Source: Microscillaceae bacterium (GTDB taxonomy: Bacteria > Bacteroidota > Bacteroidia > Cytophagales > Microscillaceae). Taken from it: a DNA stretch of 64,000 nt. Every line of letters starts with the position of its first letter. The first letter of the stretch is position 1. The stretch lies in the NCBI GenBank assembly GCA_025054775.1, contig JANWZA010000011.1, positions 1 to 64,000 on the forward strand. Reading direction: 5' to 3'. The position numbers and the translations under genes are program-made. Below, in pieces: positions 361-63,582 of the stretch. Below the pieces are notes generated by a model. The model was not told where the DNA came from, did no database searches, and saw nothing but the letters and a program-made list of their open reading frames with translations.

Positions 361-786
361 TTAGAAAGGCAGATCATCGTTGTCAGCAGATATGTCATTA
401 GTTGGATAGCTTTCTTGGGTAGCAGTGGGAGCGGTATTACCAGCGGAATTACTATTCTCTTTTGAGCCTAATAAGGTAAGGGTTTGCCCTGTAACTTCTA
501 AAGCAAAACGTTTTTCATTGTTCCTGTCCATGTATTCGCGAGTGCTAAGTTTTCCTTCCACATATACTTGTGTGCCTTTACGTACATACTTTTCTACAAC
601 GTCTGCAATATTTCCCCAAAAAGAGACTCTAAACCAGTCTGTCTTTTCTACTTGCTCGCCATTGGCTTTGGTATATTTTTCATTGACTGCCAGAGAAAAG
701 TTAGCTACTTTTTTATTTTCAAAAATACGCACTTCGGGGTCTGCACCTACGTTGCCTATGAGAGTAATTTTACTCAAACTTGCCAT
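361..786 (-). CDS. ssb: Single-stranded DNA-binding protein
   Basis: This 141-residue protein coats single-stranded DNA during replication, repair and recombination. Residues 1-105 form the OB fold (start SLSKITLIGNVGADPEV, then DWFRVSFWGN and VYVEGKLSTREY). A flexible Asn/Thr/Ser-rich linker follows, and the chain ends in the acidic DNDDLPF tip that binds partner proteins such as exonuclease I, PriA and RecO. The length suits short Bacteroidota SSBs. It stands alone on the minus strand, with a 20-bp tandem repeat 34 bases upstream of its start codon. The identification is secure; whether it is the main replicative SSB or one of several paralogs cannot be told from this window. Confidence 0.95.
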   Translation of the reverse strand: MASLSKITLIGNVGADPEVRIFENKKVANFSLAVNEKYTKANGEQVEKTDWFRVSFWGNIADVVEKYVRKGTQVYVEGKLSTREYMDRNNEKRFALEVTGQTLTLLGSKENSNSAGNTAPTATQESYPTNDISADNDDLPF

Positions 787-60144: not shown

Positions 60145-60184
60145 AACCTTTCCAAAAGTTCACTGCTTTTGGAAGGTTTTTTCA
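60145..60184 (+). terminator. Intrinsic terminator of the MarC-family gene
   Basis: AACCTTTCCAAAAG (60145-60158) pairs with CTTTTGGAAGGTT (60166-60178), with one bulged base and a seven-base loop. It is followed by TTTTC. It shares its core with the hairpin after ssb (245-277). Confidence 0.85.
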
Positions 60185-60375: not shown

Positions 60376-60409
60376 TTTGTAAAACGGTAAGATTTTTTAG
60401 CTATCTTTG
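60376..60409 (+). promoter_or_regulatory. Promoter of the channel operon
   Basis: TTTG (60376-60379), a 22-base spacer and TATCTTTG (60402-60409) fit the Bacteroidota consensus. The transcript would start about 65 bases before the ATG at 60481. Confidence 0.6.
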
Positions 60410-60480: not shown

Positions 60481-62385
60481 ATGACTAATTGCCCAAAAAT
60501 TGTACTACTTTTTGGTAAAATGCCACAAAACTATGCGTATTATTTTGCCCACTTTCTTAAGACAATACATCAAAAAGGATTTCTCTTGTTTTTAGGATGG
60601 TTTGCTTATACCTCTCTTGTTCGGGCACAAAACGGCAACTACGAGGAAATACATCTAGCTGACATCCTTTTTAATGCTATTACCAAAAAAGAGAACCAAA
60701 ACCTCAACAAACAAACTATTATTTACGACTATAATCTTAATGAATTACTTTCCAAAAAATTGAGTGAGGTGGGTATCCATAAGGAGAGTGATAGTGCAAA
60801 ATTTATAGTACCTGCGGTACTCAATTTTGATAATTGTACCTTTTTAGCAAATAATACAGGAATTACCTTAAATAATATCAATTTTCAAAAACGATTACAA
60901 TTTAGAGAATGTACCTTTTACACTAAAACCAATCCAAACGAAATACAACCCTGCGACTTCTCTTTGGTAGATTGTATTTTTGCCGATAAATTAGAAATTA
61001 CACAATATACAGGGCGTTTTTTGGATATTGTGAGTTGTAGAATTGGTGGAAAACTCAAATTACAATTCCGGCAACTCAATAAAATTTCTATCAAAAATAT
61101 TGAATACCATTACGTAAGCAATGAGGACCCTACAGAAACTGACCGAAAAGATGCCCAAGGACGCACTGTTTTCAGCGAAAATCCGATTATTTTGATTGAC
61201 AACAGCTATGGCAAAGAAGCCTGCGACTTGGTAATTACCGAGTCTAAATTTCGCTCTCGGTATAATGGTTGTAAATTTGAAATCATTGGAGGGTTTAGTT
61301 CTTTTGAAATGAATAAGAACTCTATCTCCGAAAACTTGCCTTTAGACCTGAATGGAACACGTATGGACGGGAAAATGGAAATTTCGGAGAACAAACTCTC
61401 TTATATTGCTCTTAACGAGTGCCTTATGCCTGACAATCCCTCTAACCTAATTTTTACCTGGGAGCAGTTGGCGGGTTTTAAGCTATGCACATTTAGAAAT
61501 ATTGATGAGCCCAGCGGGCAGATCCTTTACCAAGCCCAAACACAAGAAGAGTTAGCTAATTGGAAAGACTACGAGGGGCTTATCAAATCGTATAGTATTT
61601 TGCTTATGATTTATCGCGGACGTGGCGATATTGAATCAGCGAATGCATGTTATGTAGAATCTAAAAAGATAAAAACCCGCAGGCTAAAATATTTATTTAA
61701 CCAAAATCCTACGCTTGACTCGTACCTTCGCTACCAGGTAAGTGAATTTTTAGAATATTTCTGCGATTATGGCACAAACCCCGTCAAGTCGGTAATTTAT
61801 GCAGCAGAGGTTATCTTTTATTTTAGCATTATTTATTTCTTTTTACCTAGCCGTATAGATAACCTTTACACAAGGCGAGTCATGGCAAAATTAAGTGGAC
61901 TGATGCAGTACTTCTCTGAAAATCATACTCTTGCTCAAAGGTATAAAAGGCGAAAAATGATAGCTTTTCAACAATTAGAACAGTTTGACAAGCAAATACG
62001 AAGCAGTTTGAACCAAGCACCTGCTTTTTTGTACTTTTTAGCCAAACCTCTATACAAAACTTTATTTGTTTATCACCAGTTTAATTTGTGGTTGTTAGAT
62101 AAAATTGCTCCTACACCTGGCGAGTGGGCTACACTCCCCAAGCGTAAGAAGTGGTATATAGGTTCGTTAGTTATGGGCTATTTCGTCTATTTTTTAGTTA
62201 TAGGATTACTTACTCGCTTGCTCAATGCCATAGCGTTGAGTATCAATGCATTTATGACTTTGGGCTATGGCGAAATTGTTGCCAAAGGAATTGCACGATA
62301 CCTGGCTGTTGCCGAGGGCTTTATTGGTTGGTTTTTACTTTCTATTTTTAGTGCAAGTCTAATTAGTCAGTTGTTACAAAATTAA
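60481..62385 (+). CDS. Pentapeptide-like protein fused to a two-helix potassium channel
   Basis: The protein has 634 residues. Residues ~1-45 contain a hydrophobic signal or anchor helix (GFLLFLGWFAYTSLVRAQ). About 100-345 is beta-rich with a recurring Asn/Phe/Cys pattern (NFDNCTFLANNTGITLNNIN, LVDCIFADKLEITQYTGRF, ITESKFRSRYNGCKFEIIGG), like a pentapeptide or beta-helix domain. A helical linker (YEGLIKSYSILLMIYRGRGD) follows, then membrane helices near 440-460 and 555-580. The pore helix and selectivity filter TLGYG are at 593-597 (the K+ channel TxGYG), and a last helix to the end follows. Family proteins of this layout have a cytoplasmic pentapeptide part; the signal-like N-terminus makes topology uncertain. 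It heads a three-gene operon. Confidence 0.8.
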   Translation: MTNCPKIVLLFGKMPQNYAYYFAHFLKTIHQKGFLLFLGWFAYTSLVRAQNGNYEEIHLADILFNAITKKENQNLNKQTIIYDYNLNELLSKKLSEVGIHKESDSAKFIVPAVLNFDNCTFLANNTGITLNNINFQKRLQFRECTFYTKTNPNEIQPCDFSLVDCIFADKLEITQYTGRFLDIVSCRIGGKLKLQFRQLNKISIKNIEYHYVSNEDPTETDRKDAQGRTVFSENPIILIDNSYGKEACDLVITESKFRSRYNGCKFEIIGGFSSFEMNKNSISENLPLDLNGTRMDGKMEISENKLSYIALNECLMPDNPSNLIFTWEQLAGFKLCTFRNIDEPSGQILYQAQTQEELANWKDYEGLIKSYSILLMIYRGRGDIESANACYVESKKIKTRRLKYLFNQNPTLDSYLRYQVSEFLEYFCDYGTNPVKSVIYAAEVIFYFSIIYFFLPSRIDNLYTRRVMAKLSGLMQYFSENHTLAQRYKRRKMIAFQQLEQFDKQIRSSLNQAPAFLYFLAKPLYKTLFVYHQFNLWLLDKIAPTPGEWATLPKRKKWYIGSLVMGYFVYFLVIGLLTRLLNAIALSINAFMTLGYGEIVAKGIARYLAVAEGFIGWFLLSIFSASLISQLLQN

Positions 62386-62396
62386 ATTGTTTCTCA

Positions 62397-62843
62397 ATGA
62401 AAATGCTATTTTTTGGTAAAATTCTACTCCTCTTTTGTTTTATTTTTGGAGCGGATACTTTTGCTATTGCTCAAGAAAATGATATAGTGGGCACGTGGAA
62501 AACTATAGATGATGAAACTGAAAAAGAACGCTCTTGGGTAGAAATTTACAAGCAAGGTACAAAATATTTTGGTAAAATTACCAAAATTTACCTTCGCCCT
62601 GGTGAAAAACCTGATGCAGTATGCGAAAAATGCACAGACCACCGTAAAAATCAAAAAGTGATGGGTTTGGTAATCATTGAAAACATGCAGAAGCAAGGAG
62701 ACGTGTGGACAGGTGGCAAAATATTAGACCCTAGCAATGGACAAGTGTATAGCTGTAAAATGTGGTTAGAGCAAGGCGTACTTAAAGTGCGCGGTTATTG
62801 GGGCATCTTTTATAGGACGCAGAACTGGTACAGAGTAAAATAA
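62397..62843 (+). CDS. DUF2147 periplasmic protein
   Basis: This 148-residue protein has a signal peptide (KILLLFCFIFGADTFAIAQ) and a DUF2147 body with the opening DIVGTWKTIDDETEKERSWV, the middle IYKQGTKYFGKITKIYLRP, VMGLVIIENMQKQGDVWTGG and end LKVRGYWGIFYRTQNWYRVK. The fold is a lipocalin-like barrel of unknown ligand. It is 11 bases after the channel gene and 16 bases before the next, so one operon of three is likely. Confidence 0.88.
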   Translation: MKMLFFGKILLLFCFIFGADTFAIAQENDIVGTWKTIDDETEKERSWVEIYKQGTKYFGKITKIYLRPGEKPDAVCEKCTDHRKNQKVMGLVIIENMQKQGDVWTGGKILDPSNGQVYSCKMWLEQGVLKVRGYWGIFYRTQNWYRVK

Positions 62844-62859
62844 ATTTTGTTTCAATAAA

Positions 62860-63582
62860 GTGAAATTATTTTTTTTATGGTTAAATGTTGCATTAATTAT
62901 TCACGTAAATAGAAGTATAGCCCAAGTCAATAATGGTGCGGAAGATTTTTTACAAAAATACGCTCAATCTTACCAAGAAACCCTTGCCTTTTTGAAAGAA
63001 AATAAAACCCTTACTCAAAAAATATTATGTGCTTATCACAAGGATTGGCGATTTGTGTTAGCCCTTGCCTTCCCTGAAATGATACGTTACAACGAAACAC
63101 AAAACTTTTACGAAACTGCTAGCCTCTCACTCTTATATATACGTTGGGGAACAGATTATGCTAATTTTTCAGTAGGAAGGTTACAAATGAAGCCCTCGTT
63201 TGCAGAAATAGTTGAGCAAGAAATTATTAAATACAATTTAATACCTCAATACAAAGCCCTACTTTTTTCTAAAAATATTTCTGCTACTGAACAGCGGCAA
63301 ATCCGTATACAACGCCTCAATGATTGGAAATTTCAACTCCTTTACCTTGCAGCCTTTGTAAGTTTGATAGAAAAAAAATTTGCCTTATATTTGCAGAACT
63401 ATTCTGTACTTCAAAAACTTACTTTCTGTGCTTCAGCTTACAATTTGGGCTTGCAATACTCCGCAGAAATAATTGAACGATGGGCAACCACAGCCGCCTT
63501 TCCCTACGGCAAGAACAGCCGTACCTGTCGTTACAATTATACCCAAATAGCTTTATTCTTCTATCAAAACATTCATTTCTGA
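62860..63582 (+). CDS. Secreted protein, possibly lytic-transglycosylase-like
   Basis: This is 240 residues from a GTG start at 62860, chosen because it lies 16 bases after the preceding stop codon and opens a signal peptide (KLFFLWLNVALIIHVNRSIA then QVN). I do not recognise an exact family. The order of motifs suggests a lysozyme/SLT-like fold: FPEMIRYNE with a candidate catalytic Glu, later FSVGRLQMKPSFAE in the place of the SLT GxxQxxPxxA block, and FCASAYNLGLQYSAE in the place of the AAYNxG block. An enzyme that cleaves peptidoglycan is plausible, but the link is inferred from pattern only. It is the last gene of the channel operon. Confidence 0.55.
   Translation: MKLFFLWLNVALIIHVNRSIAQVNNGAEDFLQKYAQSYQETLAFLKENKTLTQKILCAYHKDWRFVLALAFPEMIRYNETQNFYETASLSLLYIRWGTDYANFSVGRLQMKPSFAEIVEQEIIKYNLIPQYKALLFSKNISATEQRQIRIQRLNDWKFQLLYLAAFVSLIEKKFALYLQNYSVLQKLTFCASAYNLGLQYSAEIIERWATTAAFPYGKNSRTCRYNYTQIALFFYQNIHF

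Follow-up and report, generated by a model that had tools for sequence, protein, structure and literature searches.

Gene organization and domains of the channel protein

The window analyzed here is the whole stretch of 64,000 nucleotides taken from a Microscillaceae bacterium (assembly GCA_025054775.1, contig JANWZA010000011.1, positions 1 to 64,000 of the forward strand). Near its end lies a gene for a predicted K+ channel, which is the subject of this analysis. The list of open reading frames (ORFs) in the window gave the channel ORF at 60481-62385 (+, 634 residues), a DUF2147 ORF at 62397-62843 (+, 148 residues; Pfam E 1.9e-31), and a third ORF at 62860-63582 (+, 240 residues, GTG start). 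The spacing is 11 nt between the channel and DUF2147 genes and 16 nt between the DUF2147 gene and the third gene, so the three short-gapped genes described in an earlier note on this DNA, made from its letters alone, are real. The channel gene is single-copy in the window genome.

The channel protein was divided into the following parts (TM, transmembrane segment).

60481..60627, +, signal-peptide-like start, residues 1-49, with probable cleavage after VRA and before Q (49/50); from hydropathy and cleavage-site pattern
60646..61530, +, beta-helix/pentapeptide-like domain, residues 56-350, probably periplasmic; from the structure model and profile matches
61561..61776, +, linker helices with a conserved YGTNP motif, residues 361-432; from the structure model and alignment
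61780..61842, +, TM1, residues 434-454; from hydropathy and the structure model
61843..62139, +, basic loop, residues 455-553, probably cytoplasmic; from charge counts
62143..62202, +, M1-like TM ahead of the pore, residues 555-574; from hydropathy, inside the continuous helix 554-592 of the model
62212..62271, +, pore helix and selectivity filter TLGYG (filter residues 593-597); from Pfam and alignment
62290..62379, +, M2 helix, residues 604-633; from the structure model

The Pfam profile Ion_trans_2 matched residues 564-631 above its curated cut-off (E 2.5e-5; 24.5 bits against 22.5), and it matched 46 of 51 relatives at E <= 0.01. The filter TLGYG has the form TxG(Y/F)G and lies between two TM helices. 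By profile and filter, the 634-residue protein is a predicted member of the pore-loop K+ channel superfamily, with K+ as the likely selected ion. Pentapeptide_3 stayed below its cut-off on the window channel (E 0.74; 10.5 bits against 27), and Pentapeptide_3 and Pentapeptide_4 each matched 6 of the 51 relatives at E <= 0.01. A phmmer search with the window channel alone matched no PDB chain.

Distribution and conserved features of the channel family

Among 395 genomes of the phylum, 10 had a match to the window channel, and among 15 Microscillaceae genomes 6 did; both counts include the window genome. A profile search of the 395 genomes returned the same 10 as the single-protein search. A contig scan with a 17-row alignment found 161 relatives, of which 78 loci were kept (L022-L099); the same kind of scan with the single window sequence found no relative. 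The labels of these loci include Microscillaceae, Cyclobacteriaceae, Flavobacteriaceae, Saprospiraceae, Marinilabiliales, Ignavibacteria, and Kapaibacterium, among others. The channel family is patchy over Bacteroidota, Ignavibacteria, and Kapaibacteria. Spread by plasmid was rejected, since tblastn of residues 360-634 against 72,556 plasmids gave no match at E <= 0.01. No description of the family was found in the open-licence PubMed Central (PMC) literature, including Ion_trans_2 combined with pentapeptide, and the family is apparently undescribed so far.

A hidden Markov model (HMM) search of the ORFs in loci L001-L099 gave 124 matches. After removal of end-open ORFs, ORFs shorter than 480 residues, and identical copies, 95 distinct complete proteins remained, the window's included, and the family counts below refer to them. 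Their layout runs from an N-terminal signal through a beta-rich domain to a TM near residue 437, and continues with a Lys/Arg-rich loop of ~104 residues, a TM, the filter, and a last TM. A 13-residue stretch with mean Kyte-Doolittle hydropathy (KD) >= 2.0 occurs within the first 70 residues of 88/95 members (92/95 at KD >= 1.6). In 86/95, a hydrophobic core is followed by small residues at -3/-1 before a polar residue. The signal-like start claimed by the earlier note is therefore kept across the family, in line with its proposal of a periplasmic sensor. The TM ahead of the pore reaches KD >= 1.6 in 93/95. The filter is TLGFG in 83/95 and TLGYG in 12/95, and the protein ends 36-37 residues past it in all 95. 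The loop between TM1 and M1 carries on average 17.7 Lys plus Arg against 12.1 Asp plus Glu.

Two variants were also seen. In the member at L010/L013 (genome G186), the loop is just ~30 residues long and the TM ahead of the pore is weak. A 248-residue relative at L009:1225-1971 (+) keeps the linker and TM1 and shows no pore segment by hydropathy, being either a truncated gene or a separate subunit.

Predicted structure and comparison with known systems

An AlphaFold (AF2) monomer model was built from a 51-row alignment of the window protein and relatives from the alignment scan. Its mean predicted local distance difference test (pLDDT) score was 87.8, mostly above 90 in the sensor. The model has strands at 108-350, helices at 361-432, a TM at 434-454, helices at 458-542, a helix at 554-592, and a last helix at 604-633. 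The sensor is a right-handed beta-helix: the pentapeptide chains 6fls, 2w7z, and 2xtw matched in the VIA comparison at Z 12.4-12.7, tied with many other beta-helices. Together with the Ion_trans_2 match and the filter, this fold bears out the beta-rich sensor joined to a K+ pore that the earlier note had described.

McbG-like proteins, Qnr, and MfpA are soluble cytosolic pentapeptide proteins and are not known to have a membrane part. They share the right-handed beta-helix with the sensor and matched the family profile weakly (E 2.6e-4 to 0.06, with a McbG-like protein at E 2.6e-4), whereas the window channel is membrane-bound.

The nearest solved relative of the channel is HalA (PDB 9nyi, solved with oligodeoxyadenylate). 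In the whole-model Foldseek search, HalA ranked first (probability 0.98, E 0.02, TM-scores 0.18 and 0.28). VIA aligned the whole model to HalA at Z 12.5 over 288 residues within 139-633, a score that many beta-helix enzymes and tailspikes equalled. The family profile matched the HalA beta-helix at E 0.0017. With the C-terminal model (window residues 352-634), HalA was the top VIA match (Z 10.8, 158 aligned, model 2-282 on HalA 175-356), followed by K+ channels and AMPA-type pores (Z 8.5-9.7; 81-99 residues). The K+-channel alignments start at model residue 76-81, which is window 427-432. HalA was not among the best 50 matches listed by Foldseek for the C-terminal model, though it was the top one in VIA.

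The order of beta-helix, linker helices, and TM-pore-TM in HalA resembles that of the window channel, and we hold with moderate confidence that the modelled order is common to both. At 371 residues the HalA chain is shorter than the window channel (634), which has in addition a start resembling a signal peptide, a loop of ~100 residues, and one more TM. HalA is not known to have a signal peptide and its sensor should be cytoplasmic; the window family differs by the export-signal-like start of 88/95 members. PMC13275509 describes HalA as the DNA-gated channel effector of Hailong anti-phage defence. Five proteins, the window channel and the third gene product among them, had no match in PADLOC-DB 2023, which may predate Hailong.

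PMC2950845 and PMC13099474 describe GluR0 and the Group 1 prokaryotic glutamate receptors as an exported sensor with a pore of K+-type filter, and in this they resemble the window channel. The GluR0 sensor is a glutamate-binding domain split on both sides of an inverted pore, whereas the window beta-helix lies wholly before the pore. The bilobed periplasmic amino-acid-binding domain of the GluR0 class is absent, the sensor being a beta-helix. The window channel was classed neither as HalA nor as GluR0.

Orientation of the sensor

The family keeps its export signal, and it combines the beta-helix fold, the K+-type filter, and a fixed domain order. Our preferred reading, with a probability of about 0.66, makes the 634-residue protein a pore-loop K+ channel that works as a tetramer and has its beta-helix receptor domain exported. 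The sensor itself lies very probably outside the inner membrane. The signal peptide would send the right-handed, pentapeptide-like beta-helix to the periplasm; TM1 would bring the chain back to the cytoplasm, and the ~100-residue basic loop would stay inside. The next TM would go out, the pore helix would re-enter from outside, and M2 would end inside, as in an ordinary K+ channel. An envelope signal could then bind or deform the beta-helix and be relayed via the linker helices with their conserved YGTNP motif and TM1, opening or closing K+ flow. The tetramer, K+ selectivity, orientation, gating, and nature of the signal are what we infer. Because of the signal peptide and one extra TM, the sensor can be outside while the pore keeps its canonical orientation.

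Several observations weigh against this reading. The window channel's own N-terminal hydropathy peak is only 1.75, and the segment ahead of the pore in the L010 member is barely a TM (KD 1.08). The last 10 residues are uncharged in 95/95, which is odd for a cytoplasmic end. The AF2 model places TM1 (434-454), not 555-574, in the M1 position, and its helix 554-592 runs continuously into the filter without a turret. If TM1 is M1 in a canonical channel, the sensor would be inside, as expected for HalA. Foldseek alone gave no match at E <= 0.001 for the whole or the C-terminal model. The charge rule gives little help, since the two flanks on the loop side carry net charges of +1.8 and +2.1 while the one ahead of TM1 is basic as well, at +1.6. 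We preferred the periplasmic sensor because the export signal and the hydrophobic 555-574 segment were weighed above the packing of a monomer.

If TM1 is M1 and the signal peptide is also accepted, an inverted pore as in GluR0 follows. The sensor would again be periplasmic, TM1 would run from outside to inside, the pore loop would enter from the cytoplasm, M2 would end outside, and 555-574 would not cross. We consider this arrangement unlikely, at roughly one chance in six. The packing of TM1 against the pore and M2 in the AF2 model agrees with it, as do the AMPA receptor pores among the VIA matches of the C-terminal model and the uncharged last ten residues, and PMC13099474 gives GluR0 as a K+ channel with a topology opposite to the canonical one. 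The strongly hydrophobic 555-574 segment in 93/95 members is hard to place without crossing, and the Ion_trans_2 match runs from residue 564 on.

Less probable again, at about one in eight, is a HalA-like channel with a cytoplasmic sensor. Here the hydrophobic start would be a membrane anchor or miscalled, TM1 would be M1, and residues 455-553 would form a periplasmic insert. The first rank of HalA in Foldseek for the whole model and its top VIA row for the C-terminal model agree with this arrangement, and HalA binds oligodeoxyadenylate, taken as made inside the cell. The start, however, is that of a typical signal peptide in 86/95 members, and the basic flanks of the loop would come to lie outside. 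The earlier note had named a cytoplasmic N-terminal domain as evidence against its proposal; the monomer packing alone points that way, and the signal-like start in 88/95 opposes it.

To our knowledge, few prokaryotic K+ channels have a sensor outside the inner membrane, GluR0 being the one case met in the literature examined. An exported beta-helix family, if true, would add a novel route from envelope signals to K+ gating. The HalA resemblance would link it to a defence channel of known ligand and raises the question of how a sensor switches membrane side.

Tandem channel arrays in relatives

Two to four channel ORFs with HMM scores > 200 occur in 11 of the 78 named loci, usually with a 1-nt gap or a 4-nt overlap. 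Array loci include L035, L036, L037, L042, L043, L044, L061, L074, and L087. The sensors within a locus are only 12-24% identical in 25 of 27 pairs, the exceptions being L087_2/4 (55%) and L036 (78%). The loops are 90-98% identical in many within-locus pairs and 42-88% in others, and the pores 81-100%, except in pairs with L035_22, which is divergent throughout. Sensors resemble those of other species (L044_9/L037_9, 51%), and loops resemble those of array mates. The same pattern was seen in DNA identity, with loop 94% vs sensor 35% for L042_19/21 and loop 92% vs sensor 38% for L037_3/9.

In a tree of the channel half (45 proteins), array copies group, with support of 0 for L044, 100 for L035, 96.7 for L037, and 91.4 for L042; the L074 copies do not group. 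Approximately unbiased (AU) tests rejected array copies held together on the sensor tree (p 2e-5 for L044, 5e-75 for L035, 1e-40 for L037, 7e-67 for L042), and on the channel tree they rejected a seven-member sensor clade of support 100 (p 5e-4) and the pair L043_12/L044_5 (p 2e-6); these p-values are only descriptive, because the six sets were picked after the identities had been seen, the array copies L037_5, L042_15, and L035_22 are missing from the trees, and long branches occur in these quick reconstructions.

In the simplest reading, these genes would encode subunits that assemble together yet differ in their sensors, with the channel halves kept alike by gene conversion or by strong joint constraint. 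The conflict between sensor and pore trees suggests that heteromeric channels with different sensors may form. With their conserved pores and divergent sensors, the arrays would make combinatorial assembly directly testable.

A joint reading of all these results can be offered only tentatively, as one that we hold less likely than not. The Bacteroidota would have heteromeric K+ channels whose tandem genes give near-identical pores, kept compatible via gene conversion, and differing periplasmic beta-helix receptors, with DUF6090 proteins as auxiliary subunits. The family would be a HalA relative whose sensor moved from cytoplasm to periplasm by a gained signal peptide and one TM, and the window gene would be a single-copy member.

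DUF6090 genes next to channel genes

When neighbor ORFs from 82 loci were clustered, a single family proved common next to the channels, with 72 members in 18 loci, and Pfam identified both members tested as DUF6090. This general clustering, which included no search directed at HalB, the nucleotidyltransferase encoded next to HalA, placed every neighbor family other than DUF6090 in at most 7 of the 82 loci. Of loci L001-L099, 21 were matched by an HMM of the family; 14 of them (13 distinct, L080/L081 being copies) have a DUF6090 gene on the same strand as a channel gene and <= 120 nt from it. DUF6090 matches numbered 2 to 77 per genome in 11/11 locus-derived genomes searched, a set that did not contain the L060 genome; the 77 were in the L074 genome. 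Because most genomes have few DUF6090 genes, we judge informally that adjacency to the channel is not expected by chance in most of them. Long same-strand DUF6090 arrays adjoin channels at L043:1-5292, L060:1-5160, L094:7477-12763, and L099:6789-12181.

DUF6090 was found in 0/15 Microscillaceae genomes, where the controls were silent too, and the same model matched 11/11 other genomes. Because of this lack of matches, the window channel probably works without DUF6090. Nothing on DUF6090 was found in the open-licence PMC literature.

Transcription signals and neighboring genes

The remaining features of the locus are as follows.

60148..60176, +, terminator-like stem-loop (12-pair stem) and T tail 3' of MarC, separating the channel gene from the upstream genes
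60402..60409, +, TATCTTTG, fitting the Bacteroidota -7 box TAnnTTTG, ~72 nt 5' of the channel ATG; from a motif scan
62397..62843, +, DUF2147 secreted protein, a neighbor and not a conserved partner; from Pfam and contig co-occurrence
62860..63582, +, exported protein with a lysozyme-like motif order, of a family in 12/15 Microscillaceae genomes; a neighbor and not a conserved partner

The -7 box of the Bacteroidota promoter consensus is TAnnTTTG. The terminator-like stem after MarC and this promoter box upstream make it probable that a separate transcript begins at the channel gene. Terminator-like sites in the window numbered 4 against 3.1 expected from shuffles, which makes them weak evidence. 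TAnnTTTG occurs 159 times across both strands of the window against 93 expected from shuffles, an excess as expected for Bacteroidota promoters. A sigma-70 promoter scan of the window was uninformative (16 seen, 15.8 expected).

The earlier note had coupled the channel to DUF2147 and a wall enzyme and had set a conserved three-gene order as a test beforehand; this order was not found in relatives. DUF2147 is in 15/15 and the third-gene family in 12/15 Microscillaceae genomes, and the two share a contig in 0/11 other Microscillaceae genomes with both, all draft assemblies. Neither gene lies on the channel's contig in the five other channel-bearing Microscillaceae genomes, also draft assemblies. 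Phmmer queries with the DUF2147, third-gene, MarC, and aminotransferase proteins had no hit at E 1e-3 among ORFs of L002-L099 (flanks <= 1.5 kb for L002-L021, up to 6 kb for L022-L099). Across 12 loci of the third gene, among them the window's, every other gene cluster is confined to at most 3. A conserved operon was rejected on the absence of neighbor homologues near other channels and of shared contigs elsewhere.

The three-gene set is therefore local to the window genome, which removes the main support for the link to wall remodelling and leaves that claim unsupported. A functional operon, in which an envelope-sensing channel acts with DUF2147 and a wall hydrolase, is very improbable: the short gaps, the lack of a terminator-like site between the three genes in the stem-loop scan, and the exported or membrane-bound look of all three products agree with it, but the gene order is not conserved and the lysozyme-like identity of the third protein was not confirmed by profile or structure search. 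It is likely that the channel transcript takes in the DUF2147 and lysozyme-like genes in the window genome alone, and that neither gene is a functional partner of the channel.

No Pfam or NCBIfam model matched the third protein, and its family profile matched no lysozyme-like structure among solved structures. The earlier name transglycosylase-like thus stays a motif resemblance, for which the conserved motif blocks speak. An exported start and the blocks FPE, GRFQMKPSF, and AYN.G are common to 12 aligned members, and the 240-residue exported proteins are perhaps an undescribed lysozyme-like family. FPE and QMKP are invariant, and AYN.G nearly so, in window 62860-63582 and its homologues in L133-L143.

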